Below, one piece after another: positions 33,853 through 62,560 of a stretch of 64,000 nucleotides of DNA. The notes under the pieces are model-generated. The model searched no databases. It was not told the origin of the DNA and was given only the letters and a program-made list of their open reading frames with translations. The stretch spans positions 1,798,001-1,862,000 of the forward strand of contig JARGXX010000092.1 in assembly GCA_030374765.1 (NCBI GenBank), read 5' to 3'. Both the position numbers and the translations under genes were made by a program. This DNA comes from Agarophyton chilense (taxonomy: Eukaryota; Rhodophyta; Florideophyceae; Gracilariales; Gracilariaceae). Each line of letters opens with the position of its first letter. The stretch's first letter is position 1.

Positions 33853-33855
33853 TTT

Positions 33856-33867
33856 TGGTCTCCCGAC
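33856..33867 (+). other. primer-binding site, outer element
   Basis: TGGTCTCCCGAC, three bases after the LTR. The identical 12-mer lies three bases after the inner element's LTR, so both use the same primer tRNA. I could not identify that tRNA. Confidence 0.75.
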
Positions 33868-34110
33868 TTTTAAAAGTATTTTTAGGTTTCGTCGTACCTT
33901 CACAGTTCACACAAGATTCCGAGAAGGATTGGACGCTCGTACACCTATTTGGTTTCAGGAAATCCCGCAAAGCAATACAGGATACAACTATTGGTCACAA
34001 TGGAACGACCGAAAAGTAATACGCGTGATGCAAGCGCCCCGCCAAGCCATAAAGGTCTTAAAGAAGCCCCATCGGCTCAACAGATTTTGGAGAACCCCGA
34101 GGAGCTGCTC

Positions 34111-34266
34111 CGGCACCCTCGGGACAAAACCGGAAAGGTACACGGTCCGCCGCCTATGGCAACGGCACCCTCGGGACAAAACCGGAAAGGTACACGGTCC
34201 GCCGCCTATGGCAACGGCACCCTCGGGACAAAACCGGAAAGGTACACGGTCCGCCGCCTATGGCAA
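34111..34266 (+). repeat. 52-bp tandem triplication in outer gag
   Basis: Three near-perfect 52-bp copies start at 34111, 34163 and 34215 (CGGCACCCTCGGGACAAAAC...). Because 52 is not a multiple of three, two extra copies shift the gag frame by two bases. Confidence 0.9.
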
Positions 34267-40059: not shown

Positions 40060-40062
40060 AAT

Positions 40063-40074
40063 TGGTCTCCCGAC
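40063..40074 (+). other. primer-binding site, inner element
   Basis: TGGTCTCCCGAC, three bases after the LTR, identical to the outer element's site. Confidence 0.75.
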
Positions 40075-40182
40075 TTAGAAGTCAAGACCGCTTGTGTCCT
40101 CTCTGAGGTTGTTTTCCGTTTAACGGGGTTTCTCCGGTCTCACCGGTTTGCTTTCTATTCTTCCGTCGAGACCGTGTGGCCA

Positions 40183-42294
40183 ATGCCAAGGAAACCGCCT
40201 AGCATGGAGCCTCCTGCAACACGCAGCCGTTCCCGCCAAAACGGTGATGCCAGGGGCATTGATGTTCCACAGGCCCTGGCTCCAACACCGGATTCCCCGG
40301 AGATACTGGTCACCGGCACTGAAGACCCGCAGCCCGATTCCGGGTTAACGACCGTCGCAACGGTGGTTTCTCCGCCTCCGCGGTTGGTCGACCAAGCGCG
40401 GATTGTACGCTTGGAAGAGCAGCTCCGCTCCCTGCGGGCTGCTCACAATACCTTCTCGAGGGAGTTCACCTCTTTACGAGGAAGCCTCGCTAACCCCCCT
40501 CCAAGTGAGTTAGCCGAGGATATCCGCGTATTGCGGTCGGACGTCAATACACTACTCGAGTGTTTTGGCGCTCCGTTTTCCTTCGCAAAAGGTATGGAGA
40601 ATCGCTTCGAGCGTCTCCGAAGCCGACTTGAGTCGGTCGAGAGGACGTTAACCTCGCCCGCGAACGCGGCTAGACCAGTTGTCTCTCATCGAGAGACCCA
40701 GTCGCGGAACCGGAAGCGCCAGAAGAACCGGGATTCTAACCGTAAGCACGGACACCCGTCCGACTAATCATCTGAGTCGGACGGTAAACCGAGTGACTCG
40801 GAGAGTTCCGATTCGTCGGTGAGCGATGACCCACAGGATCGTTATGGACGCTCTTCCCGCTCAAAGCGGTCCTCTGCCACCTACGGGGCCATCCGGTCGC
40901 GCCCCAAGGGTCGGCGACATCCGGGCCTCAAACCCTTGAAGCCCACCAACCCTCTTTACAGGACACTCCTGTCCTACCGGTATTACCGGCTAGAAGATTC
41001 TTCTTTAGGTCGGACACCGCGTGACACGGGTAAAGTGAAAGACTGCATCAAGTGGATGCAGCTTTCACTTCGTAACCAGTCGTTTACTGGGGATGATCCA
41101 ATTCTGGTCTTGGATTTCCTACACCGCTTTGTAGCGGAAGCCGATATACTCGGAATGAACGAAGGACAAGCCTACGTGGCGCTACCCTACTTTCTACGGG
41201 GTGTCGCTGAAGATCAGTTTTTGTCGGTTCGGGGCTCGTCGCGAGCCTCCGAAGGAGGTGTGACCTGCTGGCCCGAGGCCATGCAGTACCTCCTGCGTTC
41301 CTACGCAACCAACTCCGCGATACAAGCGGCGATACTCGCTTTGCGAGACACTCGACAACGCTCCGGCGAGCTCGAGACCGATGAGTCGGTACGCCTGAAT
41401 AAGGCTTTCCACCGTTGTGGTAATGTATACCCCGCTGGGGAACGCTGTACGATGTTCATTGATGGCTTGGATCCAGCCATCAAGACTCTTGTCGCCCGTT
41501 ACAGGGAACAAGAGCCGAAGGTGACCTACCTTGAACTCGTACAGTTTGCCCGCGCAGAGGGAGATGCACTACGTGCACGCAATCCGGGAACCCGGTTGAA
41601 GGCCGCTAAGGCATTGCTGCTTGAGTCGGACTCTTCTTCACCGTCATTTGCGACGGATGGCATCCCCAAACAGGGTTATGACAATATGAATGTCATCCAT
41701 CACGATGGTTTATCTGTTCCGACAACGGAATTACCGTCTACAACGGATGGCTCGGTTGACTCAACCGCAAGGGACACGGAGAACGGGCAGGTCTTTTATC
41801 TTAATGACCGCCGCACTCCGGCCCCCCGTATGCCGTACTCGAACGGAATGACACGAAGTCAGCGCCCTGGATGGGTTGGAAACCGGGAACCCGGAAGATA
41901 CACCGATGCTCGGAATGCCGTACCGCGAAACGCGGGAGTGACGTTGGTGTGCCACTTGTGCTACGAGCGCGGGCACACCTCCCCGCAATGCCTTTTATCG
42001 CTACGCGATATGGCGCGAGTGGTGGATAATTACGAAGCCCTCTCCCCGCAGGAGAAGGGCTCCGTGCCACTCACGTCATATCTCCGCGCGAAGACGGACT
42101 TCCCCAACGCATTGGCTCACACTCCGAATTCTCGGTACAAACCGGCTCAGCCGGCACGCGCCGCACCAGCGCCAAACCACGCTGGTGGATCTCAACCCGC
42201 TCCTGCGGTAGCTACCGTGCAACGGAATTATGCACTCGTTGCCGAGGAAGTCGGGCCTTCGCCCGACCAGGACCCTGTACAGGGAAAAGAATAG
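40183..42294 (+). pseudogene. gag of inner chromovirus
   Basis: ATG at 40183; one in-frame TAA at 40765-40767, otherwise open to TAG 42292-42294 (about 704 codons). N-terminal part: a coil (VRLEEQLRSLRAAHNTFSRE). Then an Arg/Lys- and Ser/Asp-rich linker, the gag core with FTGDDPILVLDFLHRFVAEA and YFLRGVAEDQFL (about 41,070-41,230), and a CX2CX4HX4C zinc knuckle (CHLCYERGHTSPQC, about 41,951-41,992). Homologous to the outer gag by the core and the spaced RCGNV block. It ends at a slippery site that lets pol be read in the -1 phase. Confidence 0.85.
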
Positions 42295-42316
42295 AGGGAG
42301 TCTCCCCTTCGGGAGA
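42282..42316 (+). promoter_or_regulatory. putative -1 ribosomal frameshift signal (gag to pol)
   Basis: Heptamer G GGA AAA at 42282-42288 in the gag phase (X XXY YYZ), one codon (GAA) before the gag stop TAG at 42292-42294. After a 12-nt spacer, a perfect hairpin TCTCCC-CTTC-GGGAGA lies at 42301-42316. The -1 phase is open from here into the protease. Confidence 0.65.
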
Positions 42317-45300
42317 GGCGTCCTCAGAGTTGAGGCTGACGACGCCCGAGGCACCGATGCCTTGCTCCCCGGTGAAAATCCTGACAAGGAAGGACACCGC
42401 AGACGCGGACTCTAAACACCTGGGTGTTTTGCGTCGACCGTGGATACCGATTAGAAATAACCGGATCCCGGATAGTGTCTTGGTAATGGCCAAGCGTAAC
42501 TACAAGGTTTACGCTGACCTTGGTCTGCACACGCAGTTTATGGTGAGATATCTCACTGTCCTGGATACAGGTGCTGGGCCAAACTTTATTGTGGAATCGG
42601 TTTGACCCCCGCCATTGCGGTCACTCATCCGTTCTGAAACGGTACCCGACTTCTCAGACGCCAATAACAACCCGTTGAAAACGGTTGGTGTGATCGACCT
42701 GGTCGTCAGGCTAGGGCGGATGGTGGTTAAACTAACTTTTATTGTGTGCCGCTCGCTGGCTGCGCCAGTTATACTGGGATGTGACTACTGCGACAGATTT
42801 GTCGACGCCATCCGCCCACGCCTTAAGCAGGTGGAACTTGAGGACGGATCGACCGTCCCCATTGTTCGTCAACCGCTGAAGCGGCCATCGAGGAAACACG
42901 TTCCTCTACCTGCTGCGCAGGAACCCACACCGGCGAACAGGGATTCTACGAAGCTACGCGTTGCCTCGTCAGTCACCATACCCCCAGAAAGCCAGGTTAT
43001 GGTTTCAGTCAATTCCCGTCAACACGGTCTTCGGGTTGTTCAGCCCTTTCCCTCGTTGTACGAGAAATTTCAGTTAACCGTTGCGAACGGAATCGTGCAA
43101 GTCACGCCGAATTCCCCTTTCAGGGTGTTGGTTGCCAATCTGGGAAAGGCTCCCCAGACGCTGGCAAAGAACCAAGTCATTGGGTCTGTGACGCCGCACC
43201 CGCTCGCGATGCTCCCTACAAAGGTGACGGCTGCCGAAGTACTCGGAATAACTCCCTCTACGGAGGATGGTCTCCCGGTATCCGGTGCAGAATCCTCCGG
43301 GGAGGCACAGCAGTTGGCGCTCGATAAAACCGTCAAGACGGATGCATTTCCGACCTCGTCGGTTCCCACAGCTGACACCAGGGCACAGCCTACGAGCTAC
43401 GATAAGATAGACCCGATCAAGGCCCTCGAGGACCTGGACCTGAGTCATGTACCGGTCTCACACCAGGACCGCTTACGCGGAATGCTACGCGAGTTTACCA
43501 CAATGTGGGACGGCTCACTGGGTAAGATCAATACAACCGAACATCGGATAGACTTGCTACCGGACGCACGTCCGGTGGCACAACCCCCTTACAGGGCGGG
43601 ACCGAAAGCTCGGGAGGAGGAAGAATTTTAGGTGGACAAGATGCTCCGTGCTGGAGTCATCGAGCCCGCCCAATCTCCTTGGGCTTCACCGGTGGTGCTG
43701 GCTCTCAAGGCTGACGGCACGTGGCGGTTTTGCGTTGACTACCGCCGCCTCAATGCCGTCACTGTGAGGGACACCTACCCGATTCCGTGCATGGACGAGT
43801 GTATAGACTCGCTCGGGGACGCTACCGTGTTTACGGCTCTGGATGCTAACTGGGGCTACTGGCAAGTCCCAGTCCGGGAAGAGGACCGAGACAAAACCGC
43901 GTTTGTTTGCCACTCGGGTTCCTACCGCTTCAAGCGGATGCCGTTTGGTTTAACCAATGCACCGGCCACCTATCAAAGGGCAATAGACATACTGATGTCG
44001 CGTTTCAAGTGGCGCACGTGCCTTGTCTACTTGGACGACATCATTGTCTTTTCCAGAAACCTGGACGATCACCTGACCCACGTGCGGGACGTGATGACCG
44101 TACTGCGAGACGCAGAAATAACCCTCAAGTCGAGGAAGTGCGAGTTCTTCACCGACACGGTGAAGTATCTCGGGCACGTCATCCGTCCAGGACGGTTAAT
44201 GATCGAACAAGTTCGTATGAAGTCCCTCTGTGAGGCGAAGGAGCCCCGTACTCAAACGGAGCTCCGATCCTTTTTAGGTCTGGTCAACGTCTATCGACGG
44301 TTTATACCGAGTTTCTCGGATATCGCCGCTCCGCTAAAGGCGCTACTGCGGAAGGGCCAGCCACCGAAGCTTGCGCCATTTACCACCGATCAGTCGGAAT
44401 CTTTTCGCTCCTTGATTAAGGCAGTTACGACAGCTCCCATCTTATCCTTGCCCAAACCTGGGTTTCCCTACTCAATCGACACCGACGCCAGCGACCACCA
44501 GGTGGGCTGCGCACTGTTCCAAACCACCCCCGAGGGGGAACGCAAACCAATTGGCTATTGGTCCCGCACGCTGAACGTCCACGAGCGCAACTACTCGGTC
44601 TCCGAGAAGGAGTGCCTCGCAGTGGTCTGGGCGCTATCCACTCTGAGCCCATACCTCATGGGCGTTCATTTCACAGTGTACACGGACCATGCCTCGTTGA
44701 GGTGGCTGCTGAACATCGCAGATCCTTCTGGCCGCTTAATGCAGTGGCGCCTCCGCTTAGCGGAATTCGACTTTGAAGTCGTCTACAAAAAGGGTGTCCA
44801 GAACACCCAAGCAGACGCCCTCTCTCGATTACCTACGACAGGTGAAGCACTTGCTGACCCGGAGGTCGACGAGATCCCGTGCTTTAAATTGGAAGGGGAA
44901 ACACCGACGGAGTCGGATTGGCCCGAAACCGGAGAAGACACCATGGAAATGGATGATCTACTCGCAGCGCGCGAGAATGAAACACCCTTACCCGGGACCT
45001 TTGTACCCATCTCCACCGAGGAGATGATCCGAGAACAGTTCGGCGACCCGTTCTGCACGCGCATACGGGCCCGCCTTAACGGTGGAGAGGACCTCCCGTT
45101 CGAGGTAAAGGACATCCGTTACCTCGTCCGGACGGTGGACCACCGATCCCAGATCGTGGTCCCCCACACCCTGCAAACCAGGGTGCTCCACCTCTCACAC
45201 TACCCGACCCTCGGGGGACACTCCGGTGGGAGAAAACTTTATCTAACCCTGCGAAGGGACTTTTATTGGCCCGCTATGGCGGTTGATTGCTACGCTACGG

Positions 45301-47573
45301 TGCAGTTCTGCACCCAATGCGCAAAGAACCGGGTGAAACTCCGGAAGCACTCCAAACGGATGAAGCTTTTCCCCGCAAGGGCGCCCCTCGAGTTTGTCGC
45401 AATCGACATTCTCGGGCCTCTACTCAAAACGCGCAAGGGAAACAAGTTCCTCTTGGTTATCACTGACCGCTTTTCGAAGCTGGTGCGCACCGTACCTTTA
45501 CGGAAGATCACCGCTTTCACGGTTGCGAACGCCTTCGTTACGCACTTGGCGTTCGTTTATGGCCCTCCGATACAGTTTCTATCCGATAACGGTAAGCAGT
45601 TCGCCTCTAAGTTCTTTCAGGACGTCTGCCGCATCCTCGACGTCAAGAACCTGTTTACTACCACCTACCACCCGCAAACAAACGGGCAGGTGGAACGCTT
45701 CAACCGCACCCTACTCGCTTCGCTACGCTCCTACGTATCCGATCACCCAATGACGTGGGACATTTATTCTGATGCTATCACCTACGCCTACAACACGCAG
45801 GTTCACCGGACAACCGGTCTGACTCCCTTCGAGCTTGTGCTCTCCAGGACACCCCCGCCAGTGGCGGTCGAACCCCAACACAGGCTCAACTCTTTCCCAT
45901 CCGTGGGTTAATACCGCCTCAAGTGGAAGAACTGGCTTACCAAGCTCGTACCGGTCGCCTGGAAGTCCATGGAACGTGCCCAGGCCGCCTACAAGCGGGA
46001 TTTTGATAACCGCTTACGCGGACCACGACCGGCACCGCCCAAGCCGGGAACCTACCTGTTCGTTCGCCGGGAGTACTACAACCCCAGGACCGACAAGCGT
46101 CACAAGCTCTCGCCTGTCGGTGAAAGTCCGTTCCGGGTCGTGTCCTCCCTCCCCGGCACCGTTGTGGTGGACAAGAACGGCGACCACGAACGTCTTTCGC
46201 AAGACCGCATCGTAGCCGCCCCACCGCCGCAGGCGGAAAACGCATCAGCCCCCGTCGAAACGGCCTCGGATACCACGGGTACAACGGTGGCACCACGCCC
46301 CGCCATGGTACCGCACCCCTCACAGGGTCTCTCCGATATACCGACTTTATCGGAACCACCGGCAATGCCGGAAACACCTGGCCCTCGCGGCCAGCTACCC
46401 TTACGGGCGCCGCACAGCGGTATTTATACCCGCCATGCGGTTAGCCCACCATCACCCGTCGCTCCGTATAAGGACGGGGAGGGGACCCACTCAATCGCGG
46501 AAGCATCGCTGTCGCAACGGAATTTTAACCGGACACCCCGTGTAAGGCCCCCGAGCGGGCAACCGGCATCGTCGCCGGACGCCAATCCGTTCCCGCAGGA
46601 CGCGGCGGTCAAACCGACCGCCACGCAACCCCGCAAGGGGGACCAAGGCGCTCGAAGACCCGAAGCCGGGAAGCGAGACCCTACGGACGCTCCGCATCGC
46701 GTGGAAGCAACTGAGGGCTCCCCGCACATTCGCGGTCGCACACCGAGCATTTCGGTCGATACCGGTATTCCGGCGGGCGCTGCGCAAGCAGGTCTAGCGA
46801 GCCACTCCGTTGAGAACGGTACGAACCCCATGGGGGAAAAGGGGCGCGACGACAAGTCGAAAACCGCCTCCCTTGCCGAACAATCGGAGCCAACCGTCCG
46901 CGACGGTCCGACCACCCGTCCTCCAGGTCACGTGACCCGGGCGGGAGATCGGACCAATGGGCACCCGGCATCCCGGTCATTGGCTGACAGCCACCCCGCG
47001 GAGGCGGATCGCCGGGACGGTGAACCACTCACCGCCCACGGCGCACCGCACGGCGGAAACTGCCCACCAATGGGAACGCCGCATGCCGCAAATCAAGCGG
47101 AGGCCTCCGGCGAACCGTCACCAAGACGGAAGGACCCCCGCAAACTCGCGGTAAGAGCGGACTTCAGGGAAGCCCCTACCGCCCAGCGGAAACACAACCC
47201 GGCCGCGCCAGCAACTTCCGCGAAGCGGTACGGCAGCCCCGGCAACCCGGCAACAACCGCAGAGCGGAATGACAAACCGGGTGACCTGGAACAGGCGACG
47301 ACGAGCCCAGCACCACGCAGGGCGGAGGCTCGGGTCACCACCACCCGGCAAGGCCGGCAAGTTTACGTACAGGAGTACGTCCTCGACCGAATCGTCGGAC
47401 ATAGCTACGATGAGCACGGGGTGCTCCAGTACCGGACCCGCTGGTACGGATACTGGCCGGAGTGGGACACCCCGGAGCCCATCGAGCACCTCCCGCGCGC
47501 TGCGGTAATGCGATACCACCGCCTTGCGGGGACCGCACTCCCAGCCACGCTGGTAAACGCCCAAGAGGGATAA
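42288..47573 (+). pseudogene. pol of inner chromovirus (PR-RT-RH-INT-chromodomain)
   Basis: A single phase from the frameshift site to TAA at 47571-47573 holds: protease VLDTGAGPN (about 42,560); RT with FCVDYRRLN, MPFGLTNAP and YLDD (about 44,030); RNase H with DTDASDHQVG and YTDHASL; integrase with the H-H-C-C finger (FCTQCAKN), AIDILGPL, LSDNGKQF and NGQVERF (D,D,E); and a C-terminal chromodomain (about 47,360-47,530; YVLDRIVGH...YRTRWYGYWPEWDTPEP). Three nonsense codons interrupt it (TGA 42603-42605, TAG 43629-43631, TAA 45909-45911), no frameshift. A long Pro/Arg-rich linker separates INT from chromodomain. Known: chromodomains steer integration to marked chromatin. Confidence 0.9.
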
Positions 47574-47906
47574 ACCGTGAACACGGAATGGAATGGCTGA
47601 TGGCGCCACGCGCCATCTCCGTCCATGCCCCAACACGGGGAAGGAAGCAACCGCTCACGCTATCCCAACGTCGTTGGTGATCGTACCAGTTACCTGGTCC
47701 GCGCGCGAAGCGCCCACCGTTAAACACCTAACTCCCAGCTAGGCTGGTTCCCTGCAACGCCGGAACCCCGGTAGAAGGCCGGTACCCCGGAAAGAAAGAA
47801 GCGGACTTGGGAAAAGGCGCCGGAAAGGCGACCCTCTTCTTTTTATTTCTCACTACTGGCAAGGGCGCCCTAGTGGCGCCGCCCTACATTCTACCGGAAG
47901 CTCCGG

Positions 47907-49682
47907 TCATTCCTCCGCACGAGGTGGACCCCCGCCCATGCGGTTGGCTAAGGCATCCCGCATGGCGGCCACATCACCCGAGATCTCGGAAGGGCGAAGC
48001 CCCACCTCCCGAAGGAAGCGCGCGATGACCTCGCCCCGCTCCGCGCCAGCGGCAGTTGCGGGCGGGACCGACACCGATGGAGTCGGATAGGAATCCGTTT
48101 GCACGGCATCAGCAGCCCCGGATGGAGCCGCACCACCGTATTCAACGGACTCCTCACCGGCCTGGCCGGACTCGTCATCCTCCGTCGGAGCGTAACCCGG
48201 ATCCTCCGGTTCGTTTTCGACCATCGGGTCACCATCCGCATAGCCGCGGTAATAGTCGCTCGAGTCGACATACCCTCGCAGGTGGTCGGCCAGGACTTCA
48301 CGCGGCGCATGCCGGTTGACTTCCGCTTCCTCGCGGCTGATCTCGTGGTACTCCCAGGGGTCGAAGTAGATGAAATCCCCCGCTAGCGCGGTATTCCTCC
48401 CGAATCCAGGGCCAGACCCGCGACGCGGTTGAATGCGTTGGGAGTTCTCCAGCGGGACCTCATCCCACTGGACTCCCTCCACAAAATCGAGGAGGCCCAG
48501 CATCTCTTCTTCGTTCGCCTCGCCCCCGAGGGAAATGCGCATGTCCAAACGGCGGATCGCAGCCCGCACACGCGGTGGCACGTACCACAATCGGTCTTGG
48601 TCGTACGCCTCAGCGAGGATAAAAGCCGCAGTGCGGACGGCCCATTCGCTTACCACGACGGACCACCACCCCGACTGGGGATCGTTCAAGAACGACGACC
48701 CTACATAGGTGAAGACTGGGGGCAGCTCAATGAAGCAACCCCAGCACGCCTCCAAGGAGGACCACGAGTCTGGGAGACTGACGTACCGACCACGTCGGTG
48801 AGCAGGCGCGATGCGCTCAATCTCCGTGTTCTGGTACGGTACGAAATACCCGGTCCGGGCCCGCCAACGCCGCTCATCGCGGATGAAGTTCTGAAGGAAG
48901 TTCGAGCGCGACTGCCGCGGTTGGTAGCGGAACTCTGCCCGAAGAATCGGTCGTACCCAGCAAAGGGCTTCTTGCCGAGCGATCGGTGTGCCCCTCCAAG
49001 CGAGGGTTTCCAATCCGTTAAGACGGTCACAGTACGACATTTCCCCGCGAGTGAGGTAAAGGTGGACGTCGAATTCGACCTCTGGCGGTATCGGGAACTC
49101 GAAAGGCGCCCGATGGTGCCTTAGATAAGCGATCCGCACAAGCGCGGCCTGAGCCTCTGCAGAGGATTCACCGCGTCGGCGGAGTATGTGGTGTACCGGG
49201 ATGGCGATACGATTACGCCAATCTCAGGACATGGTCACCACGCCGGGCAGGTCGCCCGGGAGCATCTCCGAATTATTGGTGTAGGAGTGGATCAAATCCT
49301 CGTCGCGGATAGCCAATGGGTGAAACCAAGGCGCATACCGCAACATCGCGGAGCCATGCCGAGTTCTCGGATTTGCACCCACAAAGGCGTCGTAGGTCGG
49401 CCACTGCGGTGGGTCCACCTGTCCGCGAAAGCGGGCGCCAATACGGCGGTCTTCGTACGCGAGGTTGGTAACATCCCCAGGGTGGGGCGCGGAACGGAAG
49501 CCGGTGGAACCGCCAAGGGCGGGAGTCGCAGATGTGTTATGACGGTCGGGGTCGGACATGGTGCGTGTTGGTGTGCTGTGGTTGGAATCGGATACCAAGA
49601 GCTTGCGTGCGATCCTTGGTGAAGGTGTGTTGGTTTCCGGAGACCCGGTGTCGGACGCGCTCTTATCCTGACGATCTGCCAT
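47907..49682 (-). pseudogene. antisense ORF of inner chromovirus, conserved unknown protein
   Basis: ATG at 49682, 46 bases inside the 3' LTR border, reading away from it. 592 codons with a single TGA (49224-49226) and no frameshift, ending 333 bp beyond the chromodomain stop. Features: a hydrophilic N-terminus, a central region with W/Y-rich blocks (YVSLPDSWSSLE at about 48,785, PPVFTYVGSS, VVVSEWAV, YVPPRVRAAI), then an acidic Tyr-rich stretch and a Pro/Ala-rich tail. No transmembrane helix, signal peptide or known domain. The central blocks recur in the same order in the outer element's antisense frame. The position matches the extra antisense ORFs known from some plant Ty3/gypsy families. 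Function unknown; expression would probably start in the 3' LTR or its edge. Confidence 0.7.
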
Positions 49683-49728
49683 GCCGACTTCCTCCTCGAG
49701 GTATTCGCCCTGTCTTAAGGGGGGGATA

Positions 49729-50592
49729 TGAAGAGCAACGTCTTCCAGGGAGGTTTTTGGGGACTTAAGTTTTTTCCGGAGCCTCCGGCGTGCAACCTCG
49801 TTATGAGTAGGAGTAATCCGTTTTCACGGCGATGGCCGGAACGCCGGTGATGCACCGGCGGGACCGGGTGCCATACACGTGGCCGCAGCGCCCGCGCAAC
49901 ACGTGGCCGCCAGATTGGCCCCTTTGTTAGACGGACATTTAGCTATGTAGGATAGACTTTATTTATTCTATTCTACGGTGACTACAGTACTTACGCCACC
50001 GGCCTCGCGGCCGCCGGTCCAGTAAAGTCTCCCCAACAAGGGTGATCTTGGTCTTCGAGATCTTGGCTCTGGGTCGAACCGCCTGCGCGGATATACAACT
50101 CCTTACGGAGGGATTTCCCGTGGTGCACGGCTTCCCAACCCCCTCGGACGTTCAAGCAGCCTTCGTGTGTTGGGTATCTATTCCCACTTTCGTGGTTCCG
50201 CCCGTGTATACGGTTTGCTACACCCGGCAGTGCCGGCTATTCCCGAGTCCCCTCTTGCGACTCGTGGTCAACCTCGCCCTCTTGCCTCCGTTCCCATTTT
50301 CCTTCTCTTTTCCTCCCCTTCATTGGGCAATTCCCGCTCTTGCGGCTCGCACTGACACCTGTCGTGCTCGCCACTCTCGTGGGTTTTGCCTCCTCAGAGG
50401 ATACGCAAGCACCGCTTCGGCGGATATTCTTGGCTTCTTTCAGCCTCCCTGCGCCCGTAGCGACGGTTCGGCTCCGGTTTACCCCCGGCACTGCGCGCCG
50501 ATCCCTGGGAGGGCTCTACCGCGCCGGTTACCTCGTGAGAGGAAGATCCGGACGTCTTCGTAGGTTTTCCTCCTTGGGGGCATTGTCCTACA
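49729..50592 (+). repeat. 3' LTR of inner chromovirus
   Basis: 864 bp, preceded directly by the polypurine tract (49717-49728). It carries a 4-bp TATT expansion relative to the 5' LTR. Confidence 0.95.
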
Positions 50593-52902
50593 CTGTTGTC
50601 GCCGCCAATCTTAGCGCTACCGAAAACAGGTCTACCATACACGCTGGATACAGATGCATCCCATGCCCAAATTGGTTGTTGTCTCATGCAGGAGCAGCAC
50701 AATAGAGACAAATTACCTATAGGATACTGGAGCCGCGCTATGAATGAGGCGGAGCAGAACTACACGGTAACCGAGAAGGAATGTCTAGCAGTAGTGTGGA
50801 GCATGTTGATGCTCCGTCCATAACTTTATGGTGAGCGCTTTACGTTGCGCACGGACCACGACGCCTTAAGGTGGATTCTCGGACTCGCAGATGCATCTGG
50901 TAGACTTGCCCGTTGGAGGTTGAGACTGTCGGAGTTTGAATACGACGTACAGTACCGTCCAGGTATCAAGCACAACATAGCTGACGTTATGTCACGCTTA
51001 AACACCTCAGGGTTAGAGACAGAACCGGTGGACGATGATATCCCTTGCTTTTTGGTGTCATCAAACCAAAATGGTACCGGCGAACACCTAGAAGGATGTT
51101 GGGACTTACCTGAAGACAGTGCTTTTCGGAACGCTGACATGGCAACGCAAATACTGACCCTAGAGGAAACGAACGCCATGCCCGTAACCCGAGAGAAATT
51201 TCTACGAGAACAGGCCCAGGATGCGTACTGCAGAACCTTGGCTGACCAAATTGGTTTCAAAGGTTCACCGTTCGATGTGGAGCACAATGGGTACATCGTG
51301 AGAAGGTCAACCTTGGATGGTAGCCTTCAAAAGGTGGTTCCGAAGGCACTGCGCTCGAGAGTCTTGTATCTCGCGCACTACCCGCGACTATCGGGACACC
51401 CTGGTGCCACCAGGATGTATTACACCTTGAGGCAACGGTTCTACTGGCCTCATATGGCCCATGAAGTCTATACCTTTGTAGGTTAATGCGAATCTTGTGT
51501 TCGTATCCGCGGTGGTATTCGAAAGAATCGAAAGTACCTCAAGCTGTTCCCAGCAGCGGGTCCACTGGAGTTTGTTGCGATAGACCTTCTAGGACCACTT
51601 CCCAAAACCAAGAATGGGTATCAGCACATTCTAGTGATCACCGACAGGTTCTCGAAGCTCACGAGAGCGATACCTTTAAAGGAGACGAAGTCAACCACGC
51701 TGGCGATCGCGTTCCTCAACAATTGGGTCTACCCGTATGGTGCACCACTGTACCTACTTACCGATAATGGTTCAAACTTGGCATCGAAGTTCTTCGAAGC
51801 AGTCTGTAACCTTTTTGGTATCAAGCACTATTTCACTACTTCCTACCACCCGCAGACGAACGGACGGGTCGAGCGCTTTCACCACACATTGGTATCAAGG
51901 CTACGATACTATACAGAAGAGCACCAAACTGGGTGGGATGAGCTGGTGAAACCGCTCACCTACTCCTATAACCATCAGGTACACCGGTCAACGCAGACCA
52001 CTCCCTTTGATTTGGTTCTTTCGCGACACCCCCCAGGTATTGTAGTGCAGGGAGATCATACCACCGGCACTGCAGCTGGCACACTGACCCCTGCCCAAGT
52101 CAAGCGAAATACCCTTGAGAGGTTGAGGAGGGCCCTCAAAAATGCAGAGAGCCGCCTCACTGCAGCCCAGAAGCGGTACAAGGCCGATTATGACCGTAGG
52201 GTAACCAAAGTGGTCTCTGTATCGTCGGGACAATATGTCTTCATAGACAACCCACATTCAGGTAAAAGACCACGACCGGGTGATGAAGCGGTCGATGAAG
52301 CTATTGATAGAGATGTCAATTCGAAGCTTCTACCCAAACCATGGGGACCTTATAAGGTATTGAACGCATCAGACCACACCTTTACGTTTGACCAGGACGG
52401 AATACCGAATAAGATATCAATTGACCGTATTACGGTAGCACCTGAAACGGTTCAACATCGCATGGAGGCGGACACCTCAGCTTGAGAGCCCAGAGCTGTA
52501 GCCCTGCGTACTCGACCCTCGGAGGACCCCACCCCAATTGAGGTGAACGATGACCTACCAAGGGATGATCCGGACTACAACCCTCTAACAAAGACGGAAA
52601 TGGAACCTCACACGGTAACAGCGGGAGCTCTCAACCCGGCTCCCACACACGAAGCTCCCAACTCGGAACATATGAACCCTCGAGGTAGCGTTCCCCCGAA
52701 AGATCAGGACCAAACCTCAAAGGAATTTCCCGTTGACCGTCTTGTGGGCCACACGCGAACCTACAATGGCCTGAAGTACACCGTCAGGCGGTACGGCTAG
52801 GGCCCAGAAGGGGACATTCTCGAACCCCCAGCCGCAATACCCACACACTTCCGTGTCAGGTATTGGCGCCGTCGCAAGGACCCCATGCCTGCAGACGGCT
52901 AA
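50593..52902 (+). pseudogene. pol of outer chromovirus, RNase H to chromodomain
   Basis: Resumes exactly after the duplicated CTGTT with LLSPPILALPK. RNase H shows DTDASHAQIG and LRTDHDALRW, integrase shows the finger ending CESC, AIDLLGPL, LTDNGSNL and NGRVERF. A C-terminal chromodomain (about 52,724-52,880) begins FPVDRLVGH and contains a TAG at 52798-52800, within the aromatic-rich part. Other stops: TAA 50821-50823, TAA 51484-51486, TGA 52483-52485. It ends at TAA 52900-52902. All in one phase; nonsense decay only. Confidence 0.85.
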
Positions 52903-53062
52903 CCTTAGACCTTCGTGGTACTCAGGCCTAAGGAAGGGGGGGAAAAGACGTTGTTTTCCGCAGAAGGTGGACGCATACGCGTGTCAGATTACCGACAAGG
53001 GAGGACACGAAAGAACAACCAAATGTAACATTAGGGGATACAAGAAGAGACAACAATTTACT

Positions 53063-55063
53063 TTAAGAAGGACCTGTCGGTTTAGGAGCAATGGAATCAG
53101 GAGGACTCGTGTTATTGACTACCCACGGAGGAAAACCTGCGGAAATGTTAGGAGCCATCAACCTAAGAGTTAGCAAAGGAGCGGTAGCCCCGCCACTGGG
53201 GAGAGGAGTCGAAACCGAAAGAGGATGAACGAAAGCAACCCCCGGAGCAGGTTGCAAAACCGCAGGGTTCAAGTTAGCACCTAGAAGGGGATCTGTCAAA
53301 GGATCAGATGGCGCAGCAGCACAGATGCTTGCCAGATTGGCAACCTGACGGGTGGCCAGTTGGTACATGTCCAACTGGAACTGATTCCGAAACTCACCAG
53401 GTTGGTTCAGCGCCTTCAGGTATTGCGCATGGCGCGGCAGCAAACCTTCAAGGAGCGTAAATGCAGCAACCACAGAGGTAGGCCCAGCCCTCTGAAAGTT
53501 AGTGACGCAGGACTGGCGAATCCGAGCCAGCAAACCGACCACGGCCGGAGAATCCATCATAGGTTGAGGCGAAGGACGAGCAATACCCGCCAACAGAGCT
53601 CAAAGCGGACCAGCAACCCGCGAGGACCTCGGTTGAGTAGGAGTCAGACCCGTAGGGATAGGCGACTTAGGACCTTGAGGTAACGGCTCGGACGGGAAGG
53701 GACCAGCATAAAGACCAACTGGTGTCTCCACAGTACCGTGATAAGGTTCGGGGCTCGCGGGGGCTCCATAAACAGGAGGCTCCCCGGGATAATATTGGGC
53801 GTGGCGAGGCACAATCACCCAAGTTGCGGGATCGAAAGCCTCCCAAACTTGATGGGAATCCCAATGGTAATTTTTGCTCTGCTCGAGATACGAGTCCAAA
53901 TCCTTCACAGTATAATCGGTCCCCTGCAAGATGTTCTCGTATCCAAATCGGGAAATATCCTGAACAACCCTCGGAGGTATGAAGAAGATGCGACCTGCAT
54001 GTTGAACACCATCTCGGTATATGTCAGAGTCGGGATTGCGACAATCCCAATCGATACCGAAACGGGCGGCCTCCAGAGCCAGGATGGCAACCAACACGCT
54101 CCACTCCGAGAGGGCAATCGACTAAATGAGGTAATACCGCTCTAGGTTTCGGGAAATCTGACTCCCGAAGTACACCAAAACCGGCGGAGTCAGCACGCTC
54201 AGCGACAACGGAACCTCATAGGACTCCCACCACTCTGGTCGAAGCACGTACCAATCGCGTCTGCCCTTCGTAGGTTGTGAGAAGTACTCGACGTTATGAA
54301 ACATATGCATAACGAGAGTGTAAGAGTTGCGAGTGCGAACGCGACTCTCCATCGCTGCATTCTCGCCCCACCTACTACGGTCAGCCCAATTAATAGTGGT
54401 GAAAGGCCGATTCAGGGAAACCAAGTCATGTGAAACCAGAAGGTAAGTCTCTGGAATAGGCGGGTACTGGCACACTTGCGCCACCAATCGACGGTAATAA
54501 TCCAGCTCTGGTTCGATGCGCACATACGGAAAGTCGCTGGGATATATCGGCGGGATGAAATACCTCAAAGGTGTATAACGCTGCCGACTCTGGTAACATT
54601 CCAGTCGACCCTGACGAGGTTGAGACTCTTGGTCCCGTTTTTTCAAAAGCAATGAAATGGAGCGAAGGGGCTCACAGTCCCAACGGGACAAACCCAAGTA
54701 GGTATCCAATTGTTGTCTGGTAAGAGCTGCCGGCAATGATGAATTCCCCACCGCCACAGGCCAATCGTGCTTCAACAGGTCATTGTTCGTTACCTGGTCG
54801 AAGGGAATACCAAAAGGTCCATACTGACCCGTCGTCCGGTTCGCCGCACCGAACGCGAGATTGTGAGCCCAATTGGTTTGGGTCGTCGAAGGAAGTCCAC
54901 GACAGCGTTGTGACGGGTCAGCCGGAGTCCCAGGGGAGAACTGAGTAGCAGGGACAGGCATGCTGCGAAACCCAATGTTGGGAGGCGTTCGCGAAGTCGA
55001 GCGAGTCACCCGCTTGGTAATACCACCGCGTCCACGGCCACGAGATGGGCCGCTACCTGACAT
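53063..55063 (-). pseudogene. antisense ORF of outer chromovirus, homolog of the inner one
   Basis: ATG at 55063 (the same phase stays open to 55135 and a little beyond); 667 codons with only TAG 54122-54124 and TGA 53600-53602 and no frameshift. It starts with a Gly/Arg-rich segment (SRGRGRGG). The centre matches the inner antisense protein: YVLRPEWWESYE at about 54,250, PPVLVYFGS, then SIALSEWSV and FFIPPRVVQDI, in the same order and nearly the same spacing. In a 30-residue gapless block 12 positions are identical. The TAG at 54122 aligns with a Trp in the inner copy. C-terminal part rich in Pro, Leu and Ala. No known domain; role unknown. Confidence 0.7.
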
Positions 55064-56219
55064 GGTTGGGAAGGCCGTAGCTCGACCCGACGAATGAGGT
55101 GATGACTCGACCTCCACCGCCGCGGTAAACACCAATGGGTATTCATCCTTCTGAAGTAGAGCCTCCTCGGTCCGTTATGAGGACACGGCCAACGGATCCA
55201 ACCTTTCCGGTAGTACCGACACCGACCTTTTGGGCACAAAAGTGGCCGGTGTGCGGTCGCAAGCGGGCCCAGACCTTTGAAATATCGTGGAACAGGATCA
55301 ATCAGACCTTAAAGGCATAACTGCAGGGGTATCAATCCCCTCGGAATCGCCGACTTCTTTGACCTCAATAGTAACCGGCATCTCACGTCTCTCGAGCGCT
55401 GGTGCTGCTTGTGGGGACGAGCCACCCCTTCGAGGTATCGGTGACGAATCCACGATGCCGCGCGAGGTACACCGACGTGGTACCGAATGGGTTCGAACGC
55501 GTGTGTGGAGGCGGCGCGATTTTGTCATCGTCTTGAGGGTAAACCGGAATGCAAAACTGGAAAAAGGTCGCGTAATTACCGACGGGGCCGCTCAACACCA
55601 ATAAGGTTTCACAACTGGAAGCTCCCTCCACGGGCCCAGGCCACACCTAAATGGTTGTATCGACTTGGGCTCAGGCCCCACTGGCGCCACGAGTCAATCC
55701 ATACAAGGTAGACGAAGCCTGAAAGGTCGAAAAGCCAGGAAACCAACAGGGAAAGCCGGAAAGCACGGTTACGGTCGCGACGCCGCCAATTAAGGGCAGC
55801 AATACGTGAAGGGTTGTCGAGCCGTGGGAACGACCAGGCGGGATGGCGCGCGCAGGGACCCAGGAGGGAACTGAAGTTTGAGTAACCGGGAAGGGTGAAA
55901 TACCAACTTGGTTAGACAGTGGGCTATGCGGAAGCAGAATTGCAAGCAGGCAGGGCCATTACCGAAAAGGTGTCCGCGAGCGCGCTAGTTACACTGCATC
56001 GACTTCATGACAGTCGCTACCTGAATAGTTGTCGCTCAATTCGTGCGCAGACGTCGTCGCGCGCCCTCTTTAACCGATTCTGGAGCCAAGTTCTGAACCT
56101 CAAGGGATCACGCGCCGCGCGCAGACACCACTCCGAAGCCTGCGCTGCTGTCGCTCGCTACACATCTATGGTTTGATGGAAGGAGACACGGGGCGTGTCT
56201 CACGGGTAGGAAGGGGGTC
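55064..56219. other. 3' untranslated part of outer chromovirus
   Basis: Between antisense-ORF start and 3' LTR; no coding signal. It probably contains the antisense promoter and ends with the polypurine tract GGGTAGGAAGGGGG (56204-56217). Confidence 0.5.
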
Positions 56220-56631
56220 TGTCGTATAGTGGCAGAAGGTCTGACCCTTGAGGTTGTCAATATACTACACTAACCTTGTAGGTGATGGATGTGAGGAACC
56301 ATCGGCCATGCAGCTCTGGGCGAGCTACCATCTAGGTGTTGTCAGCCACGTTTAGTGTTGACATGTACCTTCTGGTTGAGTAATTGTTAGTCCTTGTAAT
56401 TGTAATTATATATTTTTTAGTACAGTAGTGGAGTGGCCACCTGGTACTGTAGCCAGTGCTGGCCAGGTCTTTGACACTCGTTTGCCCCTGCGGGTTTTCA
56501 CGGTGCCCTGTTACCATCGAGGTTTACTACGTGTACCCTCTAAGGTTGAGCTTCAACACGCTCTCTACGGTTGAACGTCACTACGCTCCCGATACAAGAC
56601 AGTAGCATACCCCAGAGGTGATTGTACGACA
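56220..56631 (+). repeat. 3' LTR of outer chromovirus, internally deleted
   Basis: 412 bp, same termini as the 5' LTR but lacking about 220 bp between the GACACT and TGCGGGTTTTCACGG segments. Confidence 0.9.
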
Positions 56632-57878
56632 TGCTGTTGTTCGAGAGTTCATATTCTTCAGCTCAGTTTGCAGATGATTTATTTGCAACTGCTTTTCCAC
56701 ACAAGGGTTTGGTTCATTCGCGAGATCTTAAAACCTGCCCAATGCTTTTCTGTAATTGCTTCTTATCTGTCTATCTTTTTCGTGGTTAAAACTTTTCTGA
56801 TTTTCGACTTTACAGACAACTTTGCACTATTTATATCATGCAATGTCTCTCCGTCGGGTGCACACAGATGTGTTGGGTCTTTTTTGCATTTTCTATGGCT
56901 CTTGTGACCATTCACAACTTTATATTTTCGTCTTTTGGTTTTAAAGTACTCATCGTTTCTTTTCAGTTTTCTCGCTTGAGATATTCTATCATAATTCTTG
57001 CTTGATCTGTAGCGTATTTGAGAGCCACGGTTTCTTTTCTGCTGAATCATCTCTGTACTTTTTCCACACTTGGGCTCTCATTCGGATAATTGCAGCTGCT
57101 TCTGAACTCCACCGTGGTGTTTCTAGTCTTCTTCTCCCAAAAAGACGGATATCTTCGCCGCATTAAGAAGTGTGCGATTCATAAAATAAAATAGCATGTA
57201 TAGGTAGTGTCTGAACCGTCCCCGACAAACAAAGGCAAACATTCAAGTCTATGTATGAGTTTTAATGGGTAATAGCGGCTCAATAATCCAGAGAAATTGT
57301 ATGGCAATTTTGGGATCACTCAAGGTTTAGAAATCGGGCAAATTCGGATTTGCTGTAAGCGATCCGAATTGGAAGAAGCCTGACCATCTCGTATGAATTG
57401 GAGTTTCTACTAGCTAGAAATGGAAGCCAAATTTGGTGAATTTCGTATCAACGGAAGACAAGTTTGCCACTTGTAACTTGTGTCTACAATAATTGTACGA
57501 GAATTAGTTTGGCGTAAATGCCCTGTTGTCCAGTGAAACGCAAATACGAAAATGCACAAAATCCAGTTCACCCACTGTATGCATTGGCCAGAATTAGGAA
57601 TGCGACGCCGAAACCGGTGCGTTTCTTCATTCGCCTCCCGTCCCACAACCGTTCTTCGTGACCAGCCGAATAGCTGTGTGACGCTCACGTCTTGCCGTGG
57701 CCACGTCGCGCGTCGCATATCTGCCACTCATCGTGCGCAGTGCCTGCCGTACACGGCCACCCAGCTGCGTATTGCCATCTTCTCGTCACACTCCATTGAC
57801 TCCCACCGTCAATATCTGCACTAATCTTTTCCGCATCGTGCATCTCATCGTCGTCCTACATGACTTGACCACGGCGCA
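56632..57878. other. NTRC upstream region
   Basis: AT-rich to about 57,540, then GC-richer. No gene recognised; the 57410-57727 minus-strand frame has no domain. Presumably holds the NTRC promoter. Confidence 0.4.
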
Positions 57879-59528
57879 ATGGCTACCATATCTCCCGCAT
57901 TCACAGACTCGCTCTCACTCTCGCCAGCTGGCAAGCGGTACAATTCCATTGTCCCTCGCTCTGCGGCGCGTCTGCTGTCACCCCAAATTGCGCGCAATCC
58001 TCGTCGCTGTCGTACGCGCGCCGAAGCCGCCGCGCCCGTTACCAAGCCAGCACCTCCACAAACACAGAATACCTCCTCCCCCAAGTCGGCGCCAGTTGAA
58101 AATGTTGTCATCATCGGTTCTGGCCCTGCCGGTTACACCGCCGCCATCTACGCGGCGCGTGCTAACCTTCGCCCACTCGTGCTGGAGGGAATGGCATCTG
58201 GTGTTCCCGGCGGCCAACTCATGACCACATCTGACGTGGAAAACTTCCCGGGCTTTCCTAAGGGAATTTCGGGGCCGCAACTCATGTCGCACATGCGTGA
58301 ACAGGCCGCGCGTTGGGGCTCGCAGCTGCTCACCGATGATGCCGTAGCTGCTGATCTGGACACATATCCATTTCGCATCACCACCAGGGAGTCTGGCGTG
58401 GTGCGCACAAACGCTGTCATCGTTGCCACTGGTGCGAGCGCCAAGCGACTAGCCATTCCGGGAGAACAAACTTTGTGGGGCAGCGGCATTTCTGCCTGCG
58501 CAATATGCGACGGTGCAGCCCCCATCTTTTCTGGGCAGCATCTCGCCGTAGTGGGCGGCGGCGATTCAGCTTGTGAGGAAGCAGTGTATTTATGCAAGTA
58601 TGCATCTCATGTGCATCTTTTTGTGCGTTCTTCGCAGCTGCGCGCCAGCAAGACGCTGTGCGATCGCGTGCTCAACCATCCCAGCGTAACAGTGCACTTC
58701 AATACTATTGTTCTATCAGCACAGCCAGACGCAACCGCACTTCAGAACGGCAAGGGCTCACCGTTGCACTCGGTCCTAGTGCGAAAGGGCGACGGCAGCG
58801 AGCACTCAGTGGCGGTGCGTGGTCTGTTTTACGCTATCGGACACAGACCTAACACCCATTTTCTTCGCGGAAATTCCAGGCTTCGATTCGACGGTGCCGG
58901 GTACCTTGTAACCACCGCGGGCAGCCCAGAGACGGGACTGGAGGGCGTGTTTGCGGCAGGTGATGTAGCAGACTCGCAGTGGAGACAGGCGGTGACTGCA
59001 GCCGGTAGCGGATGTATGGCAGCACTGGCCGCAGAGCGTTACCTGACGCACCGCGGACTTGCTGTGGAGTACAGGCGCGACGAGCAACAGTCACCAGCGG
59101 CGGCGGCTGTGGAGGAGCGTGAGAGTGCACAGGAACTGGAAAGCGACCGCAGAGGAGCGGATGATGAGAGCAACTACGACATTCAAAACACATGGCACAG
59201 CGGGCAGTATGCACTACGGAAACTGTATCATGAAAGCAAGCGTCCGCTGATTGTGAAATATGTGTCTCCCGGGTGTGGACCATGCAAGCAGCTGAAGCCG
59301 ATGCTGAATGCTGTTGTGCGCGCGTATGAGGGTCACGTGCATTATGTGGAGATTGACATAACAAAAGATGTTGAGATTGCCGAGGCTGCGGGGGTAAGCG
59401 GGTCTCCCACGGTGCACATCTTCCATGAGAAGAGCCTGATTAAGGAGTTTCGAGGGGTGAAGATGAAATCGGAGTACCGACGGGTAGTGGAGAAACTGCT
59501 AGATGGCAGGAAGGTTGCTGTGATGTAG
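57879..59528 (+). CDS. NTRC: plastid NADPH-thioredoxin reductase C
   Basis: 549 residues from the ATG at 57879. The first ~70 residues are Ser/Ala/Arg-rich, fitting a plastid transit peptide. FAD-binding [16 protein letters not shown] (80-95), redox disulfide CAICDG (207-212), NADPH-binding [11 protein letters not shown] (225-235), GHRPNT and the FAAGDVAD block (358-365) form the reductase. A charged linker (about 395-435) leads to a thioredoxin domain with CGPCK (466-470) and the cis-Pro in GSPTV. Known: NTRC, a reductase-thioredoxin fusion, uses NADPH to keep 2-Cys peroxiredoxins and other plastid enzymes reduced, especially in darkness or low light. All catalytic residues are present. Single exon. 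Confidence 0.95.
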
Positions 59529-61302
59529 TCACGTAATCTTGGATCAAATTCTCCCTGAGGCAGCATCAAAGACTTAATCTCTCGATAACCTCTCAAACAA
59601 CTTAGTGACGGGACTACGCAAGCTACATTTGCAGGTAGTATCTGCCTTGAAGTTACGGAAAGAAAGCTATCCCTCATGCCGGCACCACGAACATTTAGAG
59701 CTGCAAATTCAGAACGAGGAGTCTCTGCATGAAAATTTTGTCTCTTCTGTCCCGCGTGTTTGGATTGGAGAAGATCAGACGTTGCAGTCTTCGTCATGGA
59801 AAGGGGAACAACGCGACGGCCAATTGTAATTGTCTTGTGAATCAAATTGTGTTTCGATTTAGTGCCATTCAGTAATCCGGAAGCTTTCAGTTGGCACAAC
59901 ATTTGCGGGTACTGAACTAAGCACGCTCTCTTGCTGATTCTCCTTGCGATGCTAAGCTTCAGTTTGTGTCTGCGATCCACAAACCACGCCTCCGCATTTC
60001 TCTGTCTCCTACTTCACGATCGCGAAAGAAATGGAGAGGGTGTGAGGAAAATATACCATTTTGTGTGGATTCAGGGGCATTGAGAGCAGAACACCGCTAC
60101 CAGAATTATTCCTCAGCTACTTCCCAAGCACTCTGGATTCACAGACAACTCTGAAGCTCTTCAAGATCATGAAGATCATGGGGAGATAATAGAAATAAAG
60201 CTTTCAGCGTCGTAGTCAGGCATTTATATATCACGCAACGTGTTCAGCCTTTGTCTCAGATTCTTCTTCGGTAAACGGTTGCAGTGAGATCCTTGGGCAG
60301 AAACGCGATTCAAAAGAGGAATTATGAACAGATCCTTTTACAAAATTGGTGTTCATTTCCCTGTTAAAGTGTTGTCCATCGCACAAGGGAAAGATTCAGG
60401 AGCTCTGCGGCTTTTGCACTTTCTTCTGTCACCAGTAGTGTCTCAGGGAGTCCTTGTACGTGCGTAGACCAGCTCCACCGAAAAGCATCAGAAGAATTCG
60501 AGTTTATCTTGCATTGCGACGTATGGTACCTTCATACGTCATTCGAATTAGTTCAGGGAGGAGACATTCTCCCACACATGAGTGACATGGTGTGTAACAT
60601 TTCGGTGATGTGGACACCAAGAAGTTTGTGAGTTGAACCCTTTCGAACCGGATTGCTTATTTCCACCATTGTAGAGATAAGATCTGCCTAAACTTACCAT
60701 TGGTTTGCAGCCGTACTTTATCAACAAAAACACAAAAACTGTTGGTATAAAGGCTGCCAAGTGGTTCTGATGTTATCTCTACAACAGTAGAGATAAGAAA
60801 CGTTGATTCTATCTAGCGAATAGAAGAAACGTATTTGCACATGTGTTCCTGTTGTCTTTCACATGCATTTTTTCAATCTTGTGTGAGCTTTTTCATGCAA
60901 TATTATTGGCTACCTCTCATCTCTACAATTGTAGAGAACAGAATTTCTAGGTTCAGAAGGGTAAACATCACGCTGATTGCAGTGAAGCCGCATCTATGTC
61001 CCTCCAACCATTGGTCTACACCTGTCCTTTTCTACGAAAATCTCGCACCTCGCAGTATCTAACTTACCCTTTCCAGCTTCAGACTTCATGTTGTCATTGT
61101 GTCTTGCTGCTTGATAAAAGAAAGCCCTGCTCCTTTGGCGACTTATATTTGCCCATAAACTCCATCCCCACCGCCCAGTCCCAACCATCATTCTCGCAAG
61201 CTAGCGTCATTCTTGCACACCTACGACAGTCACCGTTATTGGTGCACGTCTCCTTCTCAGCCAGCGAATAGAGGATCTTCAAATCATTTAACGCGCGACA
61301 AA
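59529..61302. other. intergenic region with hairpin motifs
   Basis: No gene recognised. Contains the repeated GTAGAGATAA motifs at 60,656-60,937 and, from about 60,988, the duplicated promoter of the following gene. A GATAAAAG (about 61,110) is a possible TATA-like element because it is conserved in the second copy. Confidence 0.45.
60656..60937 (+). promoter_or_regulatory. three GTAGAGATAA-type palindromic motifs
   Basis: TTGTAGAGATAAG at about 60,669, an inverted repeat TTATCTCTAC-AACA-GTAGAGATAA (60773-60796), and a perfect 18-bp palindrome TCTCTACAATTGTAGAGA (60920-60937). They lie 360-640 bp upstream of the first duplicated gene. A binding site or structural repeat is inferred. Confidence 0.45.
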
Positions 61303-62560
61303 ATGTCTCTCGTTGCGTTTGCCGCTCCGTTTACCGCAACTCGCTCGCCTTTCCTCTCGGCGCCTCTCAGCACCTCGCGTCCGATGATGACAGGCGGCCG
61401 CGCTCGCCTTACCCCACGCGCAGAACTCCGCCTTGAGCCAGGAATCCCATCTGGAGTGGACCCGCAGGAAAACGCTCCGCTACAATATTTTAAGTCTCGC
61501 CCAGTAGAGACCTACGAAAAGCGCAGCTTTACAACCGCGCTCCCGCGAAACTGGGCCGGGGAAGAAACTTCGATCGGAAGTGGGGATATCGAAATTGATC
61601 CACGCACAAAGGCTCAAGTCGATAGGAGTCGTGAAATCCAAGTGCCGCAGGAATCTACGAGTGCATTTTTGGAATACTCCATGCAGATGAAGGAGGAGAG
61701 GGAGAAGGCTTTGCAGTTGCTGAAGAAAGCTGAGGAATGACAGACGTGAGCGGCAGGGTGTGAAACGTTGATGTGGACACCATATAGGTTAGAGAATAAC
61801 AACACCCGGATTTGCTGGGAAGCTGCATCTGTGTTGGTCCAATCATTGGTCTACACCTGTCATATTTTACAAAAATCTCGCACCTCGCAGTATCCAGTTT
61901 ACCCTTTCAGACTTCACATCGTCATCGTTGCTTGTTTCTCGATAAAAGAAAGCCCTGCTTGTTTGCCTGCTGTTAATTGCCCACATCCTTCATCCCCACC
62001 GCCCAGCTACAATCGTCGTTATCGCACGCTAGCGTCATTCTTGCACACCTACGACAGTCACCGTTATTAGTGCCCGTCTCCTTCTCGCCCAGCGAAGAGA
62101 AGTTCTTCAAATCATTAAACGCGCGACAAAATGTCTCTCGTTGCATTTGCCGCTCCGTTTACCGCAACTCGCTCGCCTTTCCTCTCGGCGCCTCTCAGCA
62201 CCTCGCGTCCGATGACAGGCCGCTCAGTTCGCCTGACCCCACGCGCAGAACTCAGCCTTGAGCCAGGAATCCCATCTGGAGTGGACCCGCAGGAAAACGC
62301 TCCGCTTCGATACTACAAATCTCGCCCAATGGAGACCTACGAAAAGCGCAGCTTTGCCACCACGCTCCCGCGAAACTGGGCCGGGGAAGATAATACGATT
62401 GGAAGTGGGGATATCGAGATTGATCCACGCACAAAGGTTCAAGTTTTTATGAGTCGTGAAATCCAGGTGCCGCAGGAATCTACGAGTGCATTTTTGGAAT
62501 ACTCCATGCAGATGAAGGAGGAGAGGGAGAAGGCTTTGCAGTTGCAAAAGGAGCAATCTG
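60988..62560 (+). repeat. tandem duplication of gene plus promoter
   Basis: Unit 1 (about 60,988-61,740) and unit 2 (about 61,819-62,560) are similar from about 300 bp upstream of the ATG to near the end of the shared coding region, including GATAAAAGAAAGCCCTGCT and the stretch CACACCTACGACAGTCACCG. Confidence 0.85.
61303..61740 (+). CDS. putative plastid protein, copy 1 (shorter)
   Basis: 145 residues from the ATG at 61303. N-terminus MSLVAFAAPF rich in Ala/Ser/Thr/Arg looks like a plastid transit peptide. The mature part begins near TPRAEL and has no transmembrane helix; it ends in a charged helix (SMQMKEEREKALQL). About 85-90% identical to the downstream copy over the first ~135 residues, then it stops early with KKAEE. 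Just after that stop the DNA still resembles the coding sequence of copy 2 (CAGACGTGAGCGGCAGGGTGTG against CAGACTGGCCGTGCGACGTGTG), so this copy looks C-terminally truncated. I do not recognise the family; photosynthetic or phycobilisome-associated function is possible but unproven. Confidence 0.75.
   Translation: MSLVAFAAPFTATRSPFLSAPLSTSRPMMTGGRARLTPRAELRLEPGIPSGVDPQENAPLQYFKSRPVETYEKRSFTTALPRNWAGEETSIGSGDIEIDPRTKAQVDRSREIQVPQESTSAFLEYSMQMKEEREKALQLLKKAEE

Follow-up and report, generated by a model that had tools for sequence, protein, structure and literature searches.

The 64,000-nt stretch of red algal DNA analysed here (the window) holds two Ty3/gypsy long terminal repeat (LTR) elements. 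In each of them the interval from pol to the 3′ LTR contains a long frame that runs opposite to gag-pol. The earlier note on this DNA had also described two Ty3/gypsy elements, but they are not separate neighbours: element 1 (el1) interrupts the pol gene of element 2 (el2) and is flanked by the two el2 halves (33217-39199 on the 5′ side, 50593-56632 on the 3′ side). Because a CTGTT duplication borders el1, it must have been inserted into el2, which is the older element and the host of the insertion. The LTRs of the two elements are dissimilar, as had been claimed: the el2 stretch 50601-57900, which includes its 3′ LTR, gave no match to the el1 LTRs at E 1e-5. In el1, Pfam finds the complete pol order of reverse transcriptase (RT), RNase H and integrase. 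The frames had been placed between a chromodomain and the 3′ LTR. Their position between pol and the 3′ LTR stands, but what el2 has is a mere chromodomain-like remnant, recognised by eye, and the el1 chromodomain scores under the curated cut-off.

Both antisense frames are present on the minus strand as described, although here they are broken by stops, one in el1 and three in el2. The el1 pieces 49823-49224 and 49223-47907 form a single frame with one in-frame stop (49224-49226), and intact copies elsewhere in the genome encode 591 residues, a few 597. The ATG lies 46 nt inward from the inner edge of the 3′ LTR, and the 3′ end of the gene faces pol tail to tail at a distance of 333 nt from the pol stop. 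In el2 the pieces 55174-54122, 54121-53600 and 53599-53063 make up one frame with stops at 54122-54124 and 53600-53602; a third stop (55175-55177) is apparent relative to intact copies elsewhere, which encode 772 residues.

The two antisense proteins share a gapless 30-residue stretch with exactly 12 identities, the number given in the earlier note. BLASTP of the antisense pieces returned colinear matches with E 1e-4 and 5e-4, and a profile-profile comparison, based on shallow profiles (Neff near 1), gave E 2e-8 across 221 columns. As a shuffle control, a hidden Markov model (HMM) was built from 15 family members without el2 and run against the 276 window open reading frames (ORFs) of at least 80 aa, two el2 proteins of other copies and 2000 shuffles of an el2 protein. 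The el1 pieces scored 578.6 and 66.0 bits, the el2 window pieces 34.9 and 10.8 bits, and the el2 proteins from other copies 38.0 and 22.3 bits. The best of the 2000 shuffles reached 5.2 bits and the next window ORF 2.9 bits, so the similarity persists against shuffled sequences. By these scores the antisense proteins of el1 and el2 are homologous.

Copies were searched for in the 79.8-Mb genome that holds the window. For the el1 antisense gene we scored the best 96 of 1754 candidates, and 68 of these 96 were stop-free in the match, a figure biased to intact copies as these are the best matches; for el2 we scored the best 116 of 1004. Two more families, el3 (best 68 of 1833 candidates scored) and el4 (best 75 of 1893), were found via foreign homologues. 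The el3 locus L049 has an antisense ORF of 611 codons from stop to stop, with pol and a chromodomain on the opposite strand; the el4 locus L064 has one of 640 codons, with a chromodomain on the opposite strand. The chromodomain is above the Pfam cut-off in both, flanks having been read at one locus each, and for el3 pol the integrase is recognised by Pfam and the domain order was read by eye. Further antisense hits with frames of 666-695 codons (G000:C22:1088450 and G000:C1:52873) may represent a fifth family.

Integrase and antisense matches were then paired within 6 kb, using the best 150 of 2999 integrase candidates. Of these 150 listed matches, 34 have an antisense match at 6 kb or less (35 pairs). 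Thirty of the 35 pairs are spaced by 2.1-3.5 kb, and in all 30 the antisense gene is downstream on the opposite strand (10 from el2, 20 from el3 and its kin). The other five, at other distances, look like neighbours: three are opposite-strand upstream and two same-strand. No el1 or el4 pair at element spacing occurs among the matches listed. An antisense gene was located for at least 70 of the 100 integrase-bearing el1 copies listed. The 20 el1 loci that were fetched had been selected by antisense match; in every one the alignment spans the chromodomain region through the end of the LTR, interrupted in L046 by a gap of 103 bp. Each of the four diverged Ty3/gypsy families el1-el4 has a protein-coding gene on the antisense strand, located between its pol and 3′ LTR.

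The antisense frame was the top scorer in five of five cross-family comparisons. It gave 238 bits for el1-el3, 253 for el1-el4 and 218 for el3-el4, with other frame pairs at 101 or less; the el2 antisense frame gave 44 bits against el1 and 41 against el4, with other frame pairs at 24 or less. The coding strand is therefore settled. By both genes el3 is a closer relative of el1 than el2 is: antisense identity is 32% for el1-el3 and 24% for el1-el2, and integrase identity 62% and 53%.

To assess selection, each variant was assigned to a class according to how many copies hold it (1, 2, or 3 or more). Among 20 el2 copies, singletons comprised 303 synonymous (S) and 723 nonsynonymous (N) changes and 37 stops (substitution ratio 0.97), variants in two copies S54, N123 and 2 stops (0.92), and variants in at least three copies S59, N41 and no stops (0.28). 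Singletons differ from the class of at least three copies with Fisher p 8e-9, and from that of at least two copies with p 5e-4. In the class of at least three copies the other frames have ratios of 1.1-1.6, except the mirror sense frame with 0.45. The el2 pattern looks like that of a gene that was constrained while the elements were active and that decayed after insertion. Over all sites, 21 el1 copies gave a ratio of 0.64 (mirror sense frame 0.68; el1 pol 0.78 in 12 copies) and 15 el3 copies 0.87 (mirror 0.90). Stop variants in el1 number 4 in the antisense frame versus 9-16 in the other five frames.

The same data bear on the possibility that there is no protein at all, the open frame being a by-product of sense codon bias or a functional antisense RNA. 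The earlier claim that no sense ORF lies beneath was mistaken: a sense ORF of 245 aa occupies 48387-49124 in the mirror frame of el1 and reaches 411 aa in the el1 copy L029, and the mirror ratios are lowered too (0.45 at shared el2 sites, 0.68 at all el1 sites). However, the mirror frame has 7 (el2) and 5 (el1) stops common to at least two copies and the antisense frame 2 and 0, the antisense frame wins every cross-family comparison, and homologous proteins of up to 668 aa occur in other sources. We judge the mirror ORF in el1 to be a by-product of the antisense codons and regard the absence of a protein as highly improbable. The claim of a real, selected protein holds up well: given the homologues, the shuffle control and the el2 contrast between shared and singleton changes, the antisense frame is almost certainly a real gene under selection.

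The earlier note had asked for homologues in other elements. Besides el1-el4 in this genome, related proteins come from other sources, among them two red algae. Three protein searches, the third of which returned many fragments, yielded 31 homologues from other sources, 30 with E at or below 9e-10 and the last with E 0.01. Gracilariopsis chorda BWQ96_03215 is 55% identical to el1 along nearly the entire length and BWQ96_08668 is 52% identical to el3 over 299 columns; BWQ96_10156 (Gracilariopsis chorda) and FGB62_50g12 (Gracilaria domingensis) belong to the same family. All four are annotated as hypothetical and are known here at the protein level. Annotators should be aware that some red-algal 'hypothetical proteins' may be transposon genes. 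In a 22-row tree, el1 clusters with G. chorda P0002 and P0001 and G. domingensis P0003 (100/100), el3 with G. chorda P0019 (99/99; less than half of the P0019 row is filled) and el4 with P0006 (100/99), while G. chorda P0008 falls near el4 with poor support (80/49). Because the tree pairs el1, el3 and el4 with different foreign proteins, separate gene lineages would predate the split of this alga from Gracilariopsis, unless elements crossed between algae.

An ancient capture of a host or virus gene, kept since as cargo, would fit both the annotation of the G. chorda homologues as hypothetical proteins and the lack of any known-family match in Pfam, PHROGs or NCBIfam. We consider it improbable: the copies read with their flanks sit in Ty3 elements (el1 20/20, chosen by antisense match; a single locus for el3 and for el4), and idle cargo would not remain recognisable in four families.

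At least 8 of the 20 el1 loci are without the integrase region, and five of these (L032, L039, L041, L044 and L047) have one common junction, a deletion equivalent to window 44994-46297. The junction was found at 34 places in the genome, several of which look like duplicated segments. The antisense gene is at the expected spacing in 31 of the 34 and stop-free in 22 of 27 scored junction copies, versus 31 of 48 integrase-bearing copies (p 0.19); shared changes in the junction copies are S7 and N13. Because 31/34 carry the gene and 22/27 are stop-free, the antisense gene was retained when the integrase was lost and this non-autonomous derivative then spread. Two side observations concern el1 copies. 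A second derivative, at L033 and L043, is without RT to integrase and has about 930 bp of other sequence, which may derive from another element; a marker of this insert occurs 31 times in the genome, in 11 cases next to an el1 antisense gene that had been located. In or beside the el1 copy L029, a frame at 4704-5270 resembles, by eye, a Tc1/mariner-type DDE transposase.

The protein could instead be a replication, packaging or integration factor, for example a partner of the chromodomain integrase. It adjoins Ty3 pol or a chromodomain in four families, and charged residues of its core (E, R, R, E and E) are invariant in a 17-row alignment. That the gene is mostly open in integrase-deleted el1 speaks against such a role, if weakly, as a trans-supplied factor could persist by chance. 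On balance we find this reading doubtful.

AlphaFold2 models of 30 sequences predict a helical core, disordered ends and a small C-terminal helical motif. In P0002 the core (residues about 112-490) has a predicted local distance difference test (pLDDT) score mostly above 90, with two low loops, and the window's own 325-residue fragment has pLDDT 84 and a predicted template modelling score of 0.86. The antisense proteins belong to no Pfam or NCBIfam family and have no meaningful PDB sequence match; PHROGs gave one chance-level match only (E 0.083). The core, for which PDB and viral models gave no fold match, is possibly a new fold. The disordered tail is acidic in 11 of 14 members tested by isoelectric point (pI). 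An envelope-like ORF was considered and rejected: the gene is antisense, and simple hydropathy shows no transmembrane segment in either el1 or el3, whose maximal 19-residue hydropathy is 1.2. The corresponding value for el2 is 2.47, in a stretch that aligns with a predicted core helix of P0002.

We propose that the antisense protein is an accessory regulator of the element, translated from an antisense mRNA that begins at the 3′ LTR, and put the probability of this at about 50%. Antisense transcription would start in or right beside the 3′ LTR, 46 nt from which the el1 ATG lies, and the transcript would run tail-to-tail toward gag-pol. The protein, with its helical core of about 370 residues, disordered tail and C-terminal helical motif, would then regulate the element, presumably by activating transcription from its own LTR or by protecting that LTR from silencing, in the way proposed for plant TRP28 ORFs. 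Taken separately, the choice of a regulator over a replication or structural factor falls a little short of an even bet. More tentatively still, this own-fold antisense family may be the defining third gene of a red-algal chromovirus clade whose lineages predate the split from Gracilariopsis. It would act mainly on the carrier element (e.g. by anti-silencing) and hence be kept in the integrase-less derivative in more than 30 copies.

Several results weigh against the proposed regulator. A simple motif scan of the el1 LTRs found nothing TATA-like, either on the antisense strand of the 3′ LTR or on the sense strand of the 5′ LTR. The core has no fold match in PDB or viral models, which thus give no functional hint, and no nucleic-acid-binding domain was found in the Pfam, NCBIfam and PHROGs searches. 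A DNA-binding surface is not evident, because a simple basic-cluster pattern matches 1 of 14 proteins and the core pI ranges from 5.7 to 9.1 (el2 excluded, its core not being placed by motif). The substitution ratio had been expected to be below 1. This is clear for shared changes in el2, but the shared-versus-singleton contrast in el1 leans the same way without reaching significance (p 0.12; ratio 0.74 for changes in at least three copies), and in el3 the ratios of 0.91, 0.73 and 0.56 from singletons to at least three copies are not significant either (p 0.20).

Table 1. Features of the two nested elements in the window.
Feature	Position	Strand	Remarks
el1, whole element	39200-50592		inserted in el2 pol
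Target duplication CTGTT, 5 bp	39195-39199 and 50593-50597		read in the sequence
el1 5′ LTR	39200-40059	+	97.3% identity with 49729-50592 across 864 columns
el1 pol (RT, RNase H, integrase)	43632-45911	+	Pfam PF00078, PF17917, PF17921, PF00665 above cut-off
el1 C-terminal extension, chromodomain-like end	45912-47573	+	PF00385 E 0.0011, under curated cut-off
el1 antisense gene	47907-49682	-	ATG 49682-49680; intact copies 591 codons
Sense ORF, 245 aa	48387-49124	+	mirror frame beneath el1 antisense gene
el1 3′ LTR	49729-50592	+	purine tract AAGGGGGGG immediately upstream
el2 5′ LTR	33217-33853	+	matched parts 33217-33477 and 33701-33853; 90-92% to 56218-56632
el2 RNase H end and integrase	50824-52485	+	pol 3′ half past el1 insertion; Pfam PF17917, PF17921, PF00665
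el2 antisense gene	53063-55381	-	start placed by homology to intact 772-codon copies
el2 3′ LTR (matched part)	56218-56632	+

Elsewhere in the window, minus-strand frames at 4315-8598 resemble the helicase and replication part of a Helitron and those at 356-2500 a Ty1/copia integrase and gag (both by eye). At 60977-62510 a segment is directly duplicated with 83-90% identity, the period being about 825-835 bp.

Antisense accessory genes of LTR elements have so far come mainly from plants, with one recurring domain in Retand. According to two papers (PMC7264820; PMC11963269), the plant LTR elements Grande, RIRE2 and Retand carry antisense additional ORFs (aORF-3R), proposed as element regulators with an mRNA from the 3′ LTR. 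As described there, these resemble the red-algal gene in that they lie antisense in the space from pol to the 3′ LTR, occur in the majority of copies and across several species, and have no assigned function. Retand, which has the TRP28 domain (PF04195), differs in belonging to a non-chromovirus lineage of flowering plants (PMC11963269). Membership in Retand/Tat TRP28 was rejected: PF04195 is absent from the matches of all 30 family members (max_evalue 10, HMMER filters dropping most matches above about 0.1), the el3 and el4 antisense proteins have no Pfam family and so no PF04195, and their carriers have a chromodomain above cut-off. The fungal element Boty, mentioned in PMC7264820, is a non-plant element that also has an antisense ORF. 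The deltaretroviral HBZ and APH-2 are described in both sources as nuclear proteins of antisense genes with a 3′ LTR promoter. The likeness here is the antisense gene; in contrast, the algal protein has no fold match in the viral structure library and no bZIP model among its Pfam matches. Because copies number in the hundreds, the lineages are several and the fold is predicted well, what the protein does can be tested in an alga whose relatives have been sequenced. Sequence searches give no sign of kinship with TRP28 for this protein of chromovirus-like elements, which has the same place and orientation as the plant ORFs. The presence of a second, unrelated protein at this site in a distant lineage suggests repeated gain of antisense genes and a usefulness of the position as such.

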